Below, piece by piece: positions 1 to 5,909 of a stretch of 5,909 nucleotides of DNA. Under the pieces are notes generated by a model. The model was given only the letters and a program-made list of their open reading frames with translations, was not told the origin of the DNA and ran no database searches. Source of the stretch: an uncultured Desulfobacterales bacterium (lineage in GTDB: Bacteria; Desulfobacterota; Desulfobacteria; Desulfobacterales; JAFDCJ01). Position numbers and translations under genes: made by a program. The stretch is from contig CALZJV010000402.1 in assembly GCA_945787595.1 (NCBI GenBank), positions 1-5,909 of the forward strand. Reading direction: 5' to 3'. Position 1 is the first letter of the stretch, and each line of letters opens with the position of its first letter.

Positions 1-42
1 GAGTATTTGAATAAGCTCCCCAGGGAAGATAATGGATGAAGG

Positions 43-68
43 ATCGCGGCTGGAAAGCCGCTCCCACG
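43..68 (+). repeat. REP element, copy 1
   Basis: This is a perfect hairpin, GCGGCT (46-51), loop GGAA, AGCCGC (56-61), followed by CTCCCACG, the complement of the GTGG head typical of REPs. It is a perfect 26-base inverted match to 120-145. The 51-base spacer between the two makes a head-to-head pair. The likeness to copy 3 extends to base 74. Confidence 0.85.
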
Positions 69-119
69 TGCCATGATGAGATTTATTAGCTAAAGAACAA
101 GTAATTGTATCATATAGCT

Positions 120-145
120 CGTGGGAGCGGCTTTCCAGCCGCGAT
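120..145 (-). repeat. REP element, copy 2 (inverted), just upstream of the RAYT start
   Basis: This is the exact reverse complement of 43-68. Its hairpin is GCGGCT (127-132), loop TTCC, AGCCGC (137-142), with GTGG at 122-125 as its head. It ends 28 bases before the ATG at 174, so it lies in the promoter or leader region of the RAYT gene, where binding of the protein to its own REP could affect expression (inference). Confidence 0.85.
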
Positions 146-173
146 AAAAATAGACCAAATCCTTGCTACTAAT

Positions 174-635
174 ATGAAACCACAAAACGGATCAAAATTA
201 CTGCGAAAAGGTCGAGCTTCAATCAAAAAACAGCGTTACTTTATAACCACAACAGTGCTTGAAAGGAAACCGATCTTTAATCAAGCAGAAGCCGCGGAGA
301 TGGTTCTTAAAAGTTTGCATTGGTGTGAAAAACAGGGAAAAATCGTAATGGACGTCGCCGTGGTCATGCCGGATCACTTACACTTTGTTATGTCTCTTCA
401 GAGCGGCTCTCTAGCTCAGCTCATGCATAGCCTCAAAGGCTATACGGCTTATAAGATCAATAAACTATTAAAAAAAAGAGGCCCGTTATGGCAGCGGCAC
501 TATTACGATCATGCAGTTCGACAAGACGAAGATCTTAATGAGGTGGTCCTTTATACATTATATAATCCGGTCCGAGCTGGATTGGTTAATGATTTCCATG
601 ATTACCCTTTCTGGTATTGTAGATGGGATGTTTAA
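174..635 (+). CDS. REP-associated tyrosine transposase (RAYT, IS200/Y1-like)
   Basis: This is a single-domain HUH nuclease of the Y1_Tnp/TnpA_REP family, about 153 residues from the ATG at 174, which is a normal length. From that start the protein opens with basic residues including LRKGR and then YFITTTV, the usual first strand. The HUH metal-binding pair is in MPDHLHFVM (histidines at residues 68 and 70), followed by the family helix with LMHSLKGYTAYKIN, then WQRHYYDH and YTLYNPVRAGLV. The catalytic tyrosine is expected in the YTLYNP segment. An upstream TTG at 105 is in frame and open, but the extra 23 residues would be translated from the REP hairpin, so I prefer 174. There is no clear Shine-Dalgarno site before either start. 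Known family role: single-strand DNA cleavage at REP sequences. The gene looks intact, and its four flanking REPs are its probable substrates. Confidence 0.9.
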   Translation: MKPQNGSKLLRKGRASIKKQRYFITTTVLERKPIFNQAEAAEMVLKSLHWCEKQGKIVMDVAVVMPDHLHFVMSLQSGSLAQLMHSLKGYTAYKINKLLKKRGPLWQRHYYDHAVRQDEDLNEVVLYTLYNPVRAGLVNDFHDYPFWYCRWDV

Positions 636-656
636 TATTGTTTTCAGACTATTTTA

Positions 657-682
657 ATCGCGGCTGGAAAGCCGCTCCCACG
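657..682 (+). repeat. REP element, copy 3
   Basis: It is identical to copy 1 over the whole element and six bases beyond, with hairpin GCGGCT (660-665), loop GGAA and AGCCGC (670-675). It begins 21 bases after the RAYT stop codon, so it could also end up as a 3' hairpin in that transcript. It lacks a following T-tract, so I do not call it a terminator. Confidence 0.85.
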
Positions 683-792
683 TGCCATCATGACAGTTGG
701 TGTGTTAGTATGGCGTTTGGCGAAATAGAAGCCAGATTAAATCGGTTCGATAGTACCAAGGTTCAATAATTGTACAAGGATTGTTCTAAGCC

Positions 793-817
793 TGTGGAAG
801 CGGCTTCCAGCCGCGAT
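793..817 (-). repeat. REP element, copy 4 (inverted, diverged), upstream of mutL
   Basis: It is an imperfect inverted partner of copy 3, separated from it by 110 bases. It keeps the GTGG head (794-797) and both arms of the stem, GCGGCT (800-805) and AGCCGC (809-814). The loop has lost one T (TCC in place of TTCC), and one G in the head-stem junction has become A. It ends 39 bases before the mutL ATG. AATTGTA occurs shortly before both inverted copies (103-109 and 768-774), hinting that the two pairs descend from one unit. Confidence 0.8.
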
Positions 818-856
818 TAGACTCGATCTTCAACGATAGAAATCGTAACTAAGAAT

Positions 857-2761
857 ATGTCAAAAATAAAAATTCTACCCGAAATCCTCTCCAACAAAAT
901 CGCTGCCGGCGAGGTGGTGGAGCGCCCGGCGTCGGTGGTCAAGGAGTTGGTGGAGAATGCTCTGGATGCGGGCAGCAGCCGGATTATGGTCGATATCGAA
1001 AAAGGCGGGCGATCTTTGATTCGGGTGTCCGACAACGGCAGTGGCATGGGCCGTGATGATGCACTGCTGGCGATAGAGCGATACGCCACCAGCAAAATTT
1101 ATAAGGACCAGGATCTTTTTCGTATTCAGACCCTTGGTTTCAGGGGCGAAGCCCTGCCAAGCATCGCGGCGGTTTCGCGGCTTACTCTGGTCAGCCGGGA
1201 TCCATCCGCGGATGCAGGCACCGAGCTACGGGTTGAAGGTGGAAAGATTAAAAATGTTACCGAAGTCGGTGCCCCCAAAGGCACCATGGTAACCATCAGG
1301 CAGCTTTTTTTCAATACCCCGGCCAGACGCAAATTTTTAAAGACCATCGCAACGGAAATGAGCCACATTGCCGACAGAGTCGGCAGCATTGCCCTGGGGC
1401 ATCCCGGGGTTCAATTTCGTCTGACTCACAATGATAAAATCGTGAAAGACTGGCCGTCAACTTCGGTCCCCTTGGATAGAGTGGTCGATGTGCTCGGAGG
1501 CGATTTGAAAAATACCCTCCATTCGATTGAATTTCAAAACAACAGCGCTTCAATTTCCGGCTGGATATCATCGCCCCGGGCTACCCGCAGCACTTCCCGA
1601 GGTTTGTTCATTTACGTCAACGGCCGATTTGTGCGTGACAGGATCATTCAGCACGCCCTGTTTGAAGGCTATTCCCAGAGGCTGGTCAAGGGACAGTTTC
1701 CAATCGCCGCCCTTTTTATCAAGGTGCCGTTTGAAGAAGTGGATGTCAACGTCCATCCCACCAAAAACGAGGTTCGCTTCGCCCGCCAAAGAGACATCCA
1801 TGAAGCCGTGCGACAAGCGGTGGCCCGGACGCTGTTTGAAGCGGACAAAACTAGCTGGGACACCCGCAAGACTTATAAGGATGAGGCGTTTGGGATACAG
1901 GGTCGGGTATCGGATACAGGGATGAGAGAATTCGGAAGGCGGAATGCGGAAGTTGGAAAGGAGAAACTTGAATTCGGAAGGCGGAAGGTGGAAGTTGGAA
2001 AAGAGAAACTTGAATTGGGAAAGTGGAATTCGGAAGGCGGATTGAAAAAAGCGGATGTCAGATCTCAATCTTATTCTGCGGATGACGATAAACACCGTGA
2101 ATTTTTAGACGAATCCGCGACCCGCAACGCGCAACCCGCAACCCGCCTCACGCAGACAACTATCTGGCAAAAGAAACGATTCGGCGACATGCGCCTCATC
2201 GGCCAGTTTCACAATACCTATATTGTTTGTGAAACAGATGCGGGGCTGATCCTCATCGACCAGCATGCCGCCCATGAACGTATCCTGTTTGAACGATTCA
2301 GCGACCGCGCCAACACCTCCCCAAAAGCCGCCCAAAGGCTTCTGGTGCCGGAATCCATTGAACTGGGCTACCGAGAAGCCGGAGTTCTCGAAAAATTAAT
2401 TCCTGATTTAGCAGAGCTTGGGCTGGATATCGAGCCTTTTGGAGGCAACACCTTTTTGGTTAAATCCGTACCGCCGCTGCTGGCAGAACGCGAGGTTAAA
2501 CCTCTGTTAGTTGAAATCGTGGAAAAAATTGTGGAGATCGGCTCTTCATCAGGCCTGGCGGAAATGCTGGATGAATGCCGCATGGTCATGGCCTGTCACG
2601 GCGCCATCCGGGCCAACCAGGCACTTTCCGAGGCACAGATAAACGGTCTTCTGGCGCAACTCGATGAATGCCGCAACCCCTCCCACTGTCCACACGGTCG
2701 GCCCACCTGGATTCGCTGGGACCTCAGGACCCTTGAGAAATCGTTTAAACGAATCGTTTGA
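857..2761 (+). CDS. mutL: DNA mismatch repair protein MutL with endonuclease motif
   Basis: MutL couples mismatch recognition by MutS to downstream strand removal. The 634 residues show the full N-terminal GHKL ATPase: KELVENALDAG (general base E30, Mg-binding N34), DNGSGM (59-64), RYATSKI and GFRGEAL (94-100). The transducer part has FFNTPARRKFLK, YVNGRFV and VDVNVHPTKNEVRF (about 296-308). A low-complexity linker runs from about 335 to 435. The C-terminal dimerisation domain has the metal-binding endonuclease motif DQHA(X)2E(X)4E at 468-479, plus ACHGAIRA (579-586), CPHGRPT (611-617) and FKR near the end. In the MutL family this set marks the nicking type found in organisms without MutH. 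The start is the ATG at 857, because MSKIKILP leads directly into the conserved KIAAGEVVERP block. The ribosome site is weak. The gene is not flanked by mutS, miaA or hfq here. The linker is unusual: it is built from two heptamer-based DNA repeats, annotated separately. The gene appears intact. Confidence 0.97.
   Translation: MSKIKILPEILSNKIAAGEVVERPASVVKELVENALDAGSSRIMVDIEKGGRSLIRVSDNGSGMGRDDALLAIERYATSKIYKDQDLFRIQTLGFRGEALPSIAAVSRLTLVSRDPSADAGTELRVEGGKIKNVTEVGAPKGTMVTIRQLFFNTPARRKFLKTIATEMSHIADRVGSIALGHPGVQFRLTHNDKIVKDWPSTSVPLDRVVDVLGGDLKNTLHSIEFQNNSASISGWISSPRATRSTSRGLFIYVNGRFVRDRIIQHALFEGYSQRLVKGQFPIAALFIKVPFEEVDVNVHPTKNEVRFARQRDIHEAVRQAVARTLFEADKTSWDTRKTYKDEAFGIQGRVSDTGMREFGRRNAEVGKEKLEFGRRKVEVGKEKLELGKWNSEGGLKKADVRSQSYSADDDKHREFLDESATRNAQPATRLTQTTIWQKKRFGDMRLIGQFHNTYIVCETDAGLILIDQHAAHERILFERFSDRANTSPKAAQRLLVPESIELGYREAGVLEKLIPDLAELGLDIEPFGGNTFLVKSVPPLLAEREVKPLLVEIVEKIVEIGSSSGLAEMLDECRMVMACHGAIRANQALSEAQINGLLAQLDECRNPSHCPHGRPTWIRWDLRTLEKSFKRIV
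1893..1921 (+). repeat. Short direct repeat in the mutL linker
   Basis: GGATACAGGG occurs at 1893-1902 and again at 1912-1921 with a 19-base period, immediately before the larger tandem array. It encodes part of the low-complexity linker and has no recognisable function. Confidence 0.6.
1928..2044 (+). repeat. 42-bp in-frame tandem repeat with 7-bp inner period, mutL linker
   Basis: Two 42-base units (1928-1969 and 1970-2011), each starting GAATTCGGAAGGCGGAA and ending GAGAAACTT, differ at only a few bases. They are followed by a partial, more diverged third unit (2012-2044). In protein they read EFGRRNAEVGKEKL, EFGRRKVEVGKEKL and ELGKWNSEGG. Within a unit GGAA recurs every 7 bases (1934, 1941, 1948, 1955), giving YGGAANN heptamers. 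Six heptamers equal 14 codons, so loss or gain of a whole unit keeps the frame, while a single heptamer would not. The charged, glycine-bearing product fits a flexible linker. Confidence 0.9.
2116..2157 (+). repeat. CGCAACC heptamer array in the mutL linker
   Basis: Six successive heptamers start with CGC: CGCGACC, CGCAACG, CGCAACC, CGCAACC, CGCCTCA and CGCAGAC. The first four are near-identical and the last two are decayed. The stretch is 42 bases, the same total as one unit of the neighbouring array but of unrelated sequence. It encodes the Ala/Thr/Arg/Gln-rich end of the linker, directly before the C-terminal domain. Confidence 0.75.
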
Positions 2762-2940
2762 GTGAATGGGTTAAAAAGCGTCCCAACCCGCAAGTGTTAG
2801 CCCAATTGCGTTCAAATTCTGCGCTTACTTTGTTTACGTCCTGTATCTGCATTATGGAATTGGTTTAATCCGGGTGTGAATCAAGACTTTGGTTATTGGT
2901 ATATCCGTGGCAATTTGTGGTATGTCGACATGTAAAGTGA

Positions 2941-2976
2941 AGGAGTGCTGGAGTAATGGAGTAGTGGAGTGTTGGG
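2941..2976 (+). repeat. TGGAGTNN octamer array, + orientation
   Basis: The octamers AGGAGTGC, TGGAGTAA, TGGAGTAG and TGGAGTGT are followed by a decaying TGGG, with a strict 8-base period. The array is intergenic. It is the inverted partner of 3064-3111, with about 90 bases of AT-rich sequence between the two. Confidence 0.8.
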
Positions 2977-3063
2977 CTTAAAAACGGAAATGGATCTGAT
3001 TTTTACTCTTTTACCTTTGGTTATCCGAGATCCAAACATGGTTTATATTTTTCCATTATATCA

Positions 3064-3111
3064 ACCATTCATCAATCCATTACTCCATCACTCCAATACT
3101 CCAATACTAAA
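3064..3111 (-). repeat. TGGAGTNN octamer array, inverted
   Basis: Read on the - strand it gives TGGAGTAT, TGGAGTGA, TGGAGTAA, TGGATTGA and TGAATGGT with an 8-base period. A weaker continuation on the + strand reaches back to TTTTTCCA at 3048. It can pair with 2941-2976, forming a long imperfect hairpin. It lies 70 bases beyond the lipoprotein stop codon. Confidence 0.8.
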
Positions 3112-3180
3112 CGCTGTTATCCCCCAAACCCATTTTCTTTTCCATGGCCCATGGTAGGGAGTGGAGCCTGCCTTATGGGG

Positions 3181-3999
3181 CTACTCGTAAGGGGCGATCT
3201 CGACAGCCATATGAGCCAGGCGATTAATCGTGCGCGTATACTGGGCCCAGTGCAATGTGACCTCGCCGGCCTTGAGAACCGGTAGCGTCCCGCCGACCAT
3301 CGAAGACTTCCCACCGCTTGTTTCCTGGGTGTTGAATCGCCGGATGTGGTCCTGGGTTTTGGGCTGCAATTTGCTTTTGTGGCCGCAGCCGACGATGTCG
3401 ACCACCCAAGCACCGTCATTTTTTGTAGTGATCTTAGTGATAATCTTGGTCTGCTTCATCTGCTTGTTTGTGACCAGGGTCAGCGGAGCCGCCTGCTGCG
3501 CGTTATAAAGGGAGATGGCTCCCGCGTTGCCGCTCCTCACCGGGCCGGCGTAGCTGACCTCGATGTCGTGAGTGCCGGAGGGCGGGTTGATAAGATAGTA
3601 CAGGGCCACCTTGAGAAAGTATTCATCGCCGCGCCACATCTCGGAGAGCTGAACCTCGGAGCCCGACATCAGGGTGAGCTCGCGGCCGCCGCAGGTGACG
3701 CCGGCAATCCCCATATCACCTACATTTTCCCGGCCCTTTTCTTCAACATGGACGCCTACGATCAGCATTCGGTTCCGGCCGCTACCAATCCGAAAATTCT
3801 TTATTGCAAAGCTCTGTTTCTGCACGTTCTGGACCACCGGCAAGCTTGCTCCATCGGCGAAATCGAACTGTATCCCGCCTGCCGTCGGGATCTCTTTCGT
3901 TTCTTGCTCTATAACAGTTTTGCTCGAAGACGCGCAAGCAGCCAGATAAATAAGGCAGAGCGCTAACGCAGTAGCGTAAAGGTATCGTTTCGATTTCAT
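3181..3999 (-). CDS. Predicted lipoprotein of unknown function, last gene of operon
   Basis: This is a 272-residue protein with a lipoprotein signal peptide: basic MKSKR, a hydrophobic stretch, and lipobox LAAC with the lipidated Cys at 22. Residues 24 and 25 are Ser, not Asp, so outer-membrane sorting is plausible if Lol rules apply. The mature part begins with a short charged linker and then a beta-rich domain (about 60-170): NRMLIVGVHVE, GVTCGGRELTLM, YYLINPPSGTHDIEVSY, GAISLYNA. This pattern resembles a jelly-roll/Ig-like domain seen in bacterial surface proteins, and I cannot name the family. Four further Cys/Gly-rich strands follow to the end. The ATG is fixed by a strong Shine-Dalgarno (GGGAGGG, 4006-4012), which lies inside the last codons of the radical SAM gene. 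Only three bases separate that stop from this start, so the genes are probably translationally coupled. The gene reads more GC-rich than the radical SAM gene before it. Confidence 0.85.
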   Translation of the reverse strand: MKSKRYLYATALALCLIYLAACASSSKTVIEQETKEIPTAGGIQFDFADGASLPVVQNVQKQSFAIKNFRIGSGRNRMLIVGVHVEEKGRENVGDMGIAGVTCGGRELTLMSGSEVQLSEMWRGDEYFLKVALYYLINPPSGTHDIEVSYAGPVRSGNAGAISLYNAQQAAPLTLVTNKQMKQTKIITKITTKNDGAWVVDIVGCGHKSKLQPKTQDHIRRFNTQETSGGKSSMVGGTLPVLKAGEVTLHWAQYTRTINRLAHMAVEIAPYE

Positions 4000-4012
4000 G
4001 TCTTACCCTCCC
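4000..4012 (-). promoter_or_regulatory. Ribosome-binding site of the lipoprotein gene, inside the radical SAM 3' end
   Basis: On the - strand GGGAGGG (4006-4012) is followed by TAAGAC and then ATG. The same bases encode the last Gly codons and the stop of the radical SAM protein. This is the strongest Shine-Dalgarno site in the window. Confidence 0.85.
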
Positions 4013-4638
4013 TTTGCCAGTTTTTTCTTCAACGTTTCAGGCAGCCATTTAGTATCCGGAAGCAAAGGATCGTCTGGTTTAAACCGACCGCTTTTCAGTA
4101 TCGTAAACTTAATACCGAATTTTTGCGCCAGCTGATTTGCCGCTTCAATCTGATGCTGATTGAAGCTGAAGATGATAAATTGCCACTCTATCACCGCTCT
4201 ATTGATGGCAGCTCCCAGCGTCATTGCTTCAAATACCTGGGAAAAATTTGTGTTAATCCGATATAAATGAGCGGTATCCTGCAGTCCGTCAAGTCCGAAA
4301 CAAATCTTGTCATGGTTGTCCAATTGGTTGAATACGTTTTCCCACCACTCAAGCGGCTTGCCGCTGCCGTTTGTTGCAATTTTTAATTCTTTGTGCGACT
4401 GTTTTATTTTCTTAACGATTTCAAGAAAATGTGGGTGATAGATAGGGTCGCCGAGAGTGCCGGAAAGCATAATCTTCTTAAAATGTGGATTCTCCACCAG
4501 CCGAAAAACAAGGTCTTGCGGCAAATCCCTGATTTTGTATCGACCCTTAAAACGTGTTCTCTCACAATGGGGGCATGCCAGGCGGCACCTGGATGTCAGT
4601 TCGAGATGCAGGCTGTCACCAAACTGGTAGTCATTCAT
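4003..4638 (-). CDS. Radical SAM core protein lacking its own SPASM domain
   Basis: This is a 211-residue radical SAM protein. The cluster motif CX3CX2C is at C18, C22 and C25 (SRCRLACPHCER) and would ligate the [4Fe-4S] cluster that cleaves S-adenosylmethionine. Then come LSGTLGDPIYHP (59-68, the GGE-equivalent strand, GTLGDP type), KIATNGSGK (86-94), FGLDGL (114-119) and FIIFSFNQHQIEAANQLAQKFG (about 154-175), a set I associate with radical SAM/SPASM peptide or small-molecule modifying enzymes. The protein stops after the barrel, with no C-terminal Cys-rich domain. The ATG at 4638 overlaps the stop of the upstream Cys-rich gene by eight bases (ATGAATGA), which argues for coupled translation and roughly equal amounts. 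Substrate unknown. A frameshifted single gene is unlikely because the overlap is a clean start-stop junction and the conserved beginning (HLELTSRCRLACPHC) sits near the ATG as expected. Confidence 0.9.
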   Translation of the reverse strand: MNDYQFGDSLHLELTSRCRLACPHCERTRFKGRYKIRDLPQDLVFRLVENPHFKKIMLSGTLGDPIYHPHFLEIVKKIKQSHKELKIATNGSGKPLEWWENVFNQLDNHDKICFGLDGLQDTAHLYRINTNFSQVFEAMTLGAAINRAVIEWQFIIFSFNQHQIEAANQLAQKFGIKFTILKSGRFKPDDPLLPDTKWLPETLKKKLAKGG

Positions 4639-4933
4639 ATTTTACTCTTTGATTCAAAGTATTCGACGTAGATTTCGAGTCACAGCTGCAGTGCTTTTTG
4701 CATGCATAGGGTGCGCGTTCAGGGTCCTTTAAAAGTATCTTAATAAATTCTCTGAAGGAATGATTCTTTGCGACTTCCTCTATGGAGTGCAGGTCTAAAT
4801 CGAATGCCGGTTCACTGAAAATGCTGTTTTCATAGACTTTACCAAAATTCGGCAGCCAGCAGCACGGTAACCAGTGACTGTCATAAGACACATAGCTTTG
4901 TTTGCCTTTCAAGCACTTTGGGTATATCTTCAT
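4631..4933 (-). CDS. Small Cys-rich SPASM/twitch-like protein, partner of radical SAM gene
   Basis: This 100-residue protein has six Cys: C7 (YPKCLKG), C24 and C25 (SHWLPCCWLP), C78, C82 and C84 (YACKKHCSCD). The pattern C-X16-CC-X52-C-X3-C-X-C and the phrase SYVSYDSHWLPCCW match the auxiliary Fe-S cluster region that ends many radical SAM enzymes, where it usually reads like 'yis-dG-PCC'. There is no radical SAM motif and no signal peptide, so it should be cytoplasmic. Its start ATG (4931-4933) has AGAAGGA (4941-4947) seven bases upstream, overlapping the stop of the methyltransferase gene. It ends inside the start of the radical SAM gene. I infer that it binds one or two auxiliary clusters and forms a complex with the downstream protein. 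It could instead be the remnant of a second, degraded radical SAM/SPASM gene. Confidence 0.75.
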   Translation of the reverse strand: MKIYPKCLKGKQSYVSYDSHWLPCCWLPNFGKVYENSIFSEPAFDLDLHSIEEVAKNHSFREFIKILLKDPERAPYACKKHCSCDSKSTSNTLNQRVKYE

Positions 4934-4948
4934 CTAAAAATCCTTCTA
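4934..4948 (-). promoter_or_regulatory. Ribosome-binding site of the Cys-rich gene, overlapping the methyltransferase stop
   Basis: On the - strand AGAAGGA (4941-4947) lies seven bases before the ATG at 4933 and overlaps the TAG at 4946-4948. It decides the start of the 100-residue gene and suggests coupling to the methyltransferase. Confidence 0.75.
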
Positions 4949-5650
4949 TTTTCTTTTTACACAATGCAGGGTCCGTTTGGCATCTTCCGGATCGTTTGGC
5001 CCTGAAATGATGTGTATCTCCCAGGCAGCTTTGAACCGATCGCAGGCATAATCCAGCATATAGAAAAAAGCATTTCGGATATAGTCGGCCGGGTATTTTT
5101 CTCTGAGCCCCTGAAAGTCGCCCTGTAGTTTTTTTTCGATATGATAGCGGGGTCTGAGCGTCAGCAGCATTTCTTTTTGTGACAATCTCTCCAGCGAAGA
5201 AAGGAGATCCTTTGCAATTCCGGTTCGGATCATGTCTTTACCGATGATATTAATCATCATGCCGATGTCAAATTTACCGACTTCGTTTGCTTGGGTAACA
5301 TCAAGCGCCCGAAAATTCACCCTGTCAACCGCATAAAGCGCTTTTAATATCTCACATCCCCTGATGACGCGTTTATCAATATCAATGCCGAGAACCCAGC
5401 GCGCCCCGAGGTTTCTTGCAAAAAAAGACCAATGCCCGAAATTGCAGCCCAGATCCACAACGGTCTTGCCTTCAAAGTTCAAGACCCCATCCCTATCGCG
5501 GAGCCCGTCGCAGGCGTCACCAATGCCGTCCGCCAGCAGTTTGTCACCATCAACAACCACAGGTTGCCAGATATTCGGCGGCCCGACTGTTTTAAGTATT
5601 TCTTTAAGTTCCTTTATCTGATCCACAGCTGTTATACATAATTCATTCAA
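4946..5650 (-). CDS. Class I SAM-dependent methyltransferase, first gene of operon
   Basis: The protein has up to 234 residues with a Rossmann-fold methyltransferase core. Motif I is VVDLGCNFGHWSFFARNLGA (64-83, GxGxG variant GCNFG), and the second acidic strand is VLGIDID (D90/D92), expected to hold the SAM ribose. FRALDVTQ (113-120) is followed by FDIGMMINIIGKDM (127-140, motif IV position) and MLLTLRPRYH. The preceding stretch, NIWQPVVVDGDKL before GKTVVDLGC, recalls the mo5U34/CmoB-like family layout, but that is only a resemblance and I do not assign a tRNA role. The start is uncertain: the frame opens at TTG (5648-5650) right after an in-frame TAG, there is no in-frame ATG near the N-terminus, and a GTG at 5624-5626 would give MDQIKELKE. 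Neither has a Shine-Dalgarno site. It is followed after 12 bases by the Cys-rich gene. A possible role is methylating the radical SAM product or a shared substrate (inference). Confidence 0.85.
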   Translation of the reverse strand: MNELCITAVDQIKELKEILKTVGPPNIWQPVVVDGDKLLADGIGDACDGLRDRDGVLNFEGKTVVDLGCNFGHWSFFARNLGARWVLGIDIDKRVIRGCEILKALYAVDRVNFRALDVTQANEVGKFDIGMMINIIGKDMIRTGIAKDLLSSLERLSQKEMLLTLRPRYHIEKKLQGDFQGLREKYPADYIRNAFFYMLDYACDRFKAAWEIHIISGPNDPEDAKRTLHCVKRK

Positions 5651-5681
5651 GTTCTAGGCAACCCAAAAATACAATTTGGAA

Positions 5682-5710
5682 TTTCTACAACTTTCTAATA
5701 GGACTGTCAA
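5682..5710 (-). promoter_or_regulatory. Sigma70-type promoter for the methyltransferase-radical SAM-lipoprotein operon
   Basis: Read on the - strand, a perfect -35 box TTGACA (5705-5710), a 17-base spacer and TAGAAA (5682-5687, four of six matches to TATAAT) point into the operon. Transcription would begin near 5675, leaving a leader of about 25 bases to the TTG at 5650 or 50 to the GTG at 5626. This short leader does not supply a clear ribosome site. Confidence 0.65.
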
Positions 5711-5733
5711 TCCCCACTGCGGGACACCAGGCA

Positions 5734-5813
5734 ACGTCATTTATTCTATCAGCGAAAACCTGGTCCTCTGGGCCAGGTCAGAGTTAACTGGCTATGCCGA
5801 AGAAAAATGACGT
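5734..5813. repeat. Nested inverted repeats upstream of the operon promoter
   Basis: The outer arms ACGTCATTT (5734-5742) and AAATGACGT (5805-5813) are perfect 9-base complements separated by 62 bases. Inside them ACCTGG (5758-5763) pairs with CCAGGT (5773-5778), and GCCAG (5772-5776) can alternatively pair with CTGGC (5788-5792). The structure could be a small palindromic insertion or a structured RNA, and its nature is unknown. It ends where the TGGA octamer array begins. Confidence 0.5.
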
Positions 5814-5852
5814 GGAATGATGGAATATTGGAAGGTTGGAATAATGGGTTCA
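5813..5852 (+). repeat. Third TGGA octamer array (TGGAATNN)
   Basis: TGGAATGA, TGGAATAT, TGGAAGGT, TGGAATAA and a decayed TGGGTTCA follow each other with a strict 8-base period. It is the same architecture as the arrays at 2941 and 3064 but with AAT in place of AGT. It is intergenic. Beyond it, 5853-5909 shows nothing recognisable. Confidence 0.75.
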
Positions 5853-5909
5853 GAAGGATGAAATCTTTTTTAGATACACCTCGTAAATCAGAGATTAATC
5901 CGCCTGCGG

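Follow-up and report, generated by a model that had tools for sequence, protein, structure and literature searches.

In BtrN, MoaA and SkfB, a radical S-adenosylmethionine (SAM) barrel is combined with a twitch module that has an early cysteine, a G-x4-C motif and a late cysteine, and the module forms the C-terminal part of one chain (PMC9012708 and PMC6231123). The twitch comprises the first four cysteines of the SPASM motif, namely CX9-15GX4C followed by a late pair CX2C (PMC6231123). For BtrN, it has been proposed that the auxiliary cluster accepts an electron from the radical of the substrate, and the one-cluster twitch of MoaA binds the substrate; the role of auxiliary clusters in SPASM/twitch enzymes is still debated (PMC9012708). 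Here, we analyzed a stretch of 5,909 nucleotides (the window) from an uncultured Desulfobacterales bacterium (GCA_945787595.1, contig CALZJV010000402.1, positions 1 to 5,909 of the forward strand). Unlike in the three enzymes above, the core and the twitch are separate chains at this locus, and the twitch gene lies upstream. We consider it likely that the two genes encode one enzyme of two chains, a radical SAM barrel and a detached twitch. We could not find a description of a two-chain core/twitch enzyme, or of any separate twitch subunit, in the open-licence literature, which misses most subscription journals.

Both genes are located on the minus strand. One of them (4003..4638) encodes the radical SAM core, a subunit of 211 residues. 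It contains C18-x3-C22-x2-C25 and the GTLGDP and FGLDGL motifs, and its membership of the superfamily is indicated by Pfam Radical_SAM (PF04055, E = 2.2e-10, 41.4 bits, cut-off 29.5) and by its homologues. The fold test returned a partial TIM barrel, and CX3CX2C was kept in 79 of 81 distinct cores. As first suggested, the core ends where an auxiliary domain would start, and a separate auxiliary-cluster subunit is encoded beside it: the stand-alone twitch (100 residues, 4631..4933), with C7, C24, C78 and C82 as predicted ligands. The two genes overlap by eight bases (ATGAATGA, 4631..4638), and both the twitch stop and the core start lie inside the overlap. These coordinates, lengths, motifs and the overlap were confirmed from the sequence and its open reading frames (ORFs). 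In a profile scan of the 132 ORFs of the window, we found one core and one auxiliary module only, that is, the known pair. A PDB sequence search with the core profile (A3) gave nothing at 0.001. No RRE family, one of the signs of a RiPP maturase, was among the Pfam and NCBIfam matches listed for the pair (for the core, 25 of 40 in NCBIfam), and small precursor ORFs were not searched for.

The small protein has six cysteines (C7, C24, C25, C78, C82 and C84), with W26 following C25. All of the cysteines named in the first-pass annotation are thus present, but C84 is outside the motif: in an alignment with seven close relatives, the other five were invariant and C84 was variable. In addition, five of the six were conserved at 90% or more in a 63-row alignment (A5), a flattering figure, since A5 combined 57 of the 72 distinct auxiliary stretches listed with the window's protein and five further proteins and omitted 15 (14 more divergent or partial stretches and that of phage Mosig). 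The twitch motif was found as C7-x11-S19-x4-C24, with G at position 19 in relatives, followed by C78-x3-C82; the late pair is therefore CX3C, whereas the published motif has CX2C (PMC6231123). The loose pattern CX9-15[GS]X4C occurred in 70 of 76 modules overall and in 14 of the 16 modules encoded separately ahead of a core. Among the 76 modules with a core, C..C..CX3C was kept in 74 and CC in 64.

The annotation had described a SPASM/twitch-like setting. The twitch half of this description stood, but SPASM identity was rejected, because the seven-cysteine motif for two clusters is absent (the small protein lacks the CX2CX5CX3C part). Meanwhile, the profile searches that it proposed placed the core above the PF04055 cut-off and the small protein below that of Pfam SPASM (E = 0.016, 15.9 bits, curated cut-off 21.5). 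A SPASM match at E up to 0.1 was obtained for 47 of the 63 aligned modules, the window's included, the best being 8.3e-7. The predicted structure of the small protein gave weak fold matches, and all three listed were SPASM/twitch enzymes; for instance, the model aligned weakly to residues 166-248 of BtrN. A PDB sequence search with the A5 auxiliary profile returned only three rows (E 0.33 to 0.47), two of YydG (EpeE) and one of an unrelated viral transcription factor. As judged from these motifs, the small protein fits a one-cluster twitch domain rather than a SPASM domain.

To place the pair among its relatives, we ran protein searches, which gave 7 relatives for the small protein and 17 for the core, and a profile scan of IMG/VR, which gave viral relatives (80 kept of 84); a first viral scan with the window's core alone had given no relative. 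Iterated profiles of both modules were run on all ORFs of the fetched stretches, and modules were called adjacent when fewer than 400 bases separated their ends on the same strand. At an E-value limit of 1e-30, there were 110 hits to the core, which represented 81 distinct sequences; the limit for the auxiliary module was 1e-4. There were 16 cores with the auxiliary gene upstream, 13 with it downstream (11 loci), 9 fused in the order aux-core, 38 fused in the order core-aux, and 5 with none found. The aux-first single chains are P0020 (353 residues), P0022 (244 residues, apparently cut short) and nine viral ORFs, while P0023 and P0024 carry the module after the core. Thus, the aux-first order is not peculiar to this locus but one of four arrangements within a single subfamily.

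The cysteine pattern of both modules was kept in all 29 split pairs. These pairs recur at many loci with different overlaps and gaps. The module is thus conserved as a pair with the core, and the two-subunit enzyme proposed in the first-pass annotation is most likely correct. When the nearest possible start was taken, a rule that favours short distances, 28 of the 29 overlapped by at most 35 bases or lay at most 11 bases apart; the exception is locus L002, with 153 bases between the twitch and core genes. The other split aux-core pairs had overlaps of 4, 8, 11 and 29 bases and gaps of 2, 4, 10 and 11. Given this tight spacing, the overlap ATGAATGA would fit translational coupling of the two genes. 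Programmed frameshifting that yields a fusion is unlikely, because the overlaps and gaps vary among loci. Ten further protein clusters (P0009-P0018; P0015 is that of L002, and P0018 is partial) contain the core, with identities of 68-95%. A search that used 25 split auxiliary proteins as queries also gave 46 proteins of 82 to 158 residues (E up to 1e-5; 200 candidates from 5.8 billion sequences), 7 of which were already among the relatives of the small protein. The core occupies a pair of ORFs at two loci (L038 4784-5635 and L071 1067-1962) but a single ORF at the similar loci L040 and L034; the interruptions may be either real breaks or assembly errors.

The maximum-likelihood tree comprised 79 cores and was unrooted; two cores with E above 1e-40 were omitted. 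One half of 38 rows (support 100/98) held all 16 split aux-core, 11 of the 13 split core-aux and all 9 fused aux-core cores, and in the other half 37 of the 41 rows were fused core-aux. The window, L001 (its nearest relative) and L002 formed a single group (100/100). The five arrangement states required 11 changes on the tree (minimum possible 4; mean of shuffled states 37.2), with 3 changes for order alone and 5 for split versus fused. In the approximately unbiased (AU) test, a single clade was rejected for the split aux-core cores (p = 0.006) and also for the aux-first cores as a whole (p = 0.0009), but not for the fused aux-core cores (p = 0.175). On the evidence of these rejections, module order has changed more than once.

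Among described families, NF033640 (N_Twi_rSAM) appears by profile to be the closest match to the aux-first architecture, below its cut-off. The fused P0020 matched positions 12-270 across both of its modules (E = 5.8e-5), so single chains of the aux-first type are already known; we read the N in the family name as N-terminal, from the name and the match positions. However, the cut-off is 170 bits, and the matches scored only 22 to 32 (P0020 itself, 22.4 bits). The window's core matched positions 171-330 (E = 1.3e-7, 31 bits) and is thus not a member, the small protein had no match, and the fused P0022 had none at E 0.01. The best NCBIfam match of the core was TIGR04317 (W_rSAM_matur, tungsten oxidoreductase radical SAM maturase; E = 1.5e-17), which covered the core region alone and no auxiliary part, and at 63.8 bits was far below the cut-off of 380. 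PqqE and PqqD are also alike in that a radical SAM enzyme and a small partner occur separate or fused; however, the role of PqqD is to bind the peptide leader, it is not known to carry an Fe-S cluster, and PqqE keeps its own SPASM domain.

In the proposed enzyme, the 211-residue chain would be the barrel, whose three cysteines bind the SAM-cleaving [4Fe-4S] cluster that gives the 5'-deoxyadenosyl radical. The 100-residue chain would bind a single auxiliary cluster through C7, C24, C78 and C82 and would cap the opening of the barrel in the manner of the C-terminal twitch of BtrN, and the short gene overlap would yield both chains together. This two-chain enzyme is supported by the conserved pairing, the four module arrangements, the common cysteine pattern, purifying selection and the model of a natural fusion. 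The ratio of nonsynonymous to synonymous substitution rates (Ka/Ks) between the window and L002 was 0.14 for each gene, with values of 0.13 to 0.17 for both (Ks 0.8 to 1.1), and in this more distant comparison both look to be under purifying selection. For the natural aux-core fusion L027, the predicted template modelling score (pTM) was 0.86. Going by pTM, we take this to mean that the two domains are confidently placed relative to each other, although local confidence (pLDDT) is low in parts of the auxiliary module. Furthermore, core and auxiliary distances were correlated over the 29 split pairs (r = 0.81), but this support weakens for the distant pairs (0.45, and 0.12 for aux-core only), which counts against the two chains working together.

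We infer a physical heterodimer, the number and type of clusters, the role of the twitch cluster as an electron acceptor and a small-molecule substrate. The last is proposed because BtrN and MoaA act on small molecules, and because the best of the core fold matches of L027 (BlsE, SuiB, MoaA and anSME) was BlsE, of blasticidin biosynthesis; the best alignments were confined to the core and were uninformative on N-terminal versus C-terminal twitch position. By analogy with BtrN, four cysteine ligands would be in keeping with a closed cluster, and a small molecule would more likely be oxidized, in a dehydrogenase-like reaction, a suggestion that we make only tentatively. Removal of clusters from one chain can wreck a protein; for example, one PapB double variant precipitated (PMC10470005). 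In a natural enzyme of two chains, the auxiliary cluster could be supplied, omitted or exchanged in trans, which would open electron return, substrate binding and docking to direct tests. Such an enzyme would also demonstrate that a twitch domain is able to exist on its own and to change sides.

Since the small protein is a separate chain, it could also be a transient partner, either an electron carrier or a substrate-holding carrier, and not a stable subunit; for PapB, obligatory intermolecular electron transfer has been argued (PMC10470005). However, natural fusions in both orders with the same cysteine pattern, together with the high-pTM two-domain model, point to a fixed place on the core, and we regard a transient partner as unlikely. 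The possibility that the pair is a decaying remnant or functionless passenger in this bacterium might be raised by its rarity (2 of 291 genomes of the order) and by a relaxed small gene in the comparison with L001 (Ka/Ks 0.58; core, 0.23). Nevertheless, the low ratios against L002, the intact state of every predicted cluster cysteine and the ten further core clusters make decay very improbable. An artefact, in which a sequencing frameshift cut a single gene, would agree with the eight-base overlap and with the existence of fused relatives. It is refuted by the same split in independent metagenome-assembled genomes (MAGs) and many viral contigs, by variable spacing (such as the 153-base gap of L002) and by the reverse gene order for 13 cores at 11 loci. 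In addition, the continuous relatives, which the first-pass annotation had named as a sign of a frameshift, are on other branches of the tree and have linkers of various length.

A different question is how the order arose. The two-chain enzyme is compatible with the alternative raised in the first-pass annotation, an origin from tandem radical SAM/twitch units that lost one outer half on each side; the enzyme would work in the same way, and its order would be accidental. Several viral loci have runs of at least two radical SAM genes, and two side-by-side core-aux pairs are present in each of L025 and L026; loss of the outer genes from these pairs would leave aux-core. Arrays on several contigs mean that tandem-gene loss may be a route for order flips. 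However, no second core or auxiliary module was detected by profile in the window, L001 or L002, and we consider this origin rather doubtful for the pair. Five or six radical SAM core hits per fetched stretch were observed in the viral contigs L006, L007, L013, L016, L018 and L030, and in L006 and L018 a single auxiliary module of this type was found. The idea that the detached twitch is part of an exchangeable kit in viruses and a few bacteria, pairing with a core in trans and perhaps serving more than one core in arrays such as those of L006 and L018, seems improbable to us; if true, it would be a radical SAM system whose auxiliary cluster is a shared, swappable subunit.

Phage-borne radical SAM genes in arrays have been reported before: pelagimyophages carry radical SAM cassettes in the host recognition cluster (PMC7029224), and two Campylobacter phages have 11 and 12 radical SAM proteins (PMC2853527). 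In the available parts of both sources, however, the description goes no further than radical SAM genes. When 50,697 phage records were searched with the window's core, the matches were limited to Pelagibacter phage Mosig EXVC030M and three records of Campylobacter phages. Mosig_00084/00085 (L086 7962-8928) is a split core-aux pair with an annotated eight-base overlap; genes for nitroreductase, aminotransferase, carbamoyltransferase and methyltransferase lie in the same region. In the annotation, the core is a molybdenum cofactor biosynthesis enzyme, and the detached twitch gene codes for a hypothetical protein; the present reading would give a meaning to such small phage proteins.

The nearest DNA is L001, a Desulfobacterales MAG contig with 88% identity over mutL and over the lipoprotein-core-twitch genes. 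In L002, from another Desulfobacterales MAG (genome G002), the pair sits elsewhere, ahead of an ATP-dependent helicase gene that is presumably hrpA-like. In the order of genome G001, the twitch gene had matches in 3 of 291 genomes, namely G001, G002 and a third that was dismissed (E = 2.2e-4, three internal stops); in the phylum, it was found in 1 of 395 genomes drawn, again G001. Seven distant plasmid records matched the core at less than 60% identity. The other relatives are mostly viral contigs, the only collection scanned by profile; the genome collection was searched a single time, and only with the core of the window, which leaves bacterial relatives undersampled relative to viral ones. 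It is plausible that the Desulfobacterales acquired the pair from a virus. A second twitch copy in G002 (L005) was rejected, because two contig ends share 141 identical bases and represent one gene. These ends, of L005 and at the start of L002 (contigs C38 and C329 of the same MAG), both fall in the twitch gene and have the look of an assembly break that was left unjoined.

The neighbour survey (Pfam and PHROGs) covered 98 neighbouring ORFs of 15 loci, out of 145 ORFs listed for 16 loci; those left out were mostly the pair itself, all of L082 and overlapping ORFs. The neighbours were phage genes, with radical SAM the commonest family (12 of 98, some themselves relatives). Among the families with the most members (25 of 38 and 25 of 62), no partner was shared by more than a few ORFs, and no substrate clue emerged.

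Within the window, the minus-strand transcription order is methyltransferase, small cysteine protein, radical SAM core and putative lipoprotein. The class I SAM-dependent methyltransferase (234 residues, 4946..5650, minus strand; PF13847, E = 6.1e-9) is encoded 12 bases upstream of the twitch gene and had no match in G001 or G002 in a search without positive control. In G002, a sequence resembling window 5678-5715 directly precedes the twitch gene, so the methyltransferase stretch (4934-5677) is absent there; either it was inserted in the lineage of the window or it was lost in that of G002. The methyltransferase was therefore dropped as an obligate partner. The putative lipoprotein (272 residues, 3181..3999, minus strand) starts 3 bases past the core stop and had no family above cut-off. 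It was present in 1 of 146 genomes drawn from the order (G001), adjoining the same pair, and was dropped as a partner beyond the window and L001. It is probably a co-transcribed passenger seen only in the nearest relative, and with the pair it may form a small island beside mutL.

The plus strand carries the ORF 857-2761, which we take to be mutL, and a Y1 transposase. A 42-base tandem repeat of 2.6 copies was found in the MutL linker (1928-2036); it stays in frame, and thus the linker reads as a repetitive, charged stretch. Finally, direct and inverted copies of a palindromic repeat (ATCGCGGCTGGAAAGCCGCTCCCACG) occur at 43-84, 114-153, 649-698 and 805-826 and flank the Y1 (IS200-like) transposase ORF at 105-635; together they look like what we presume to be a REP element with its RAYT transposase.
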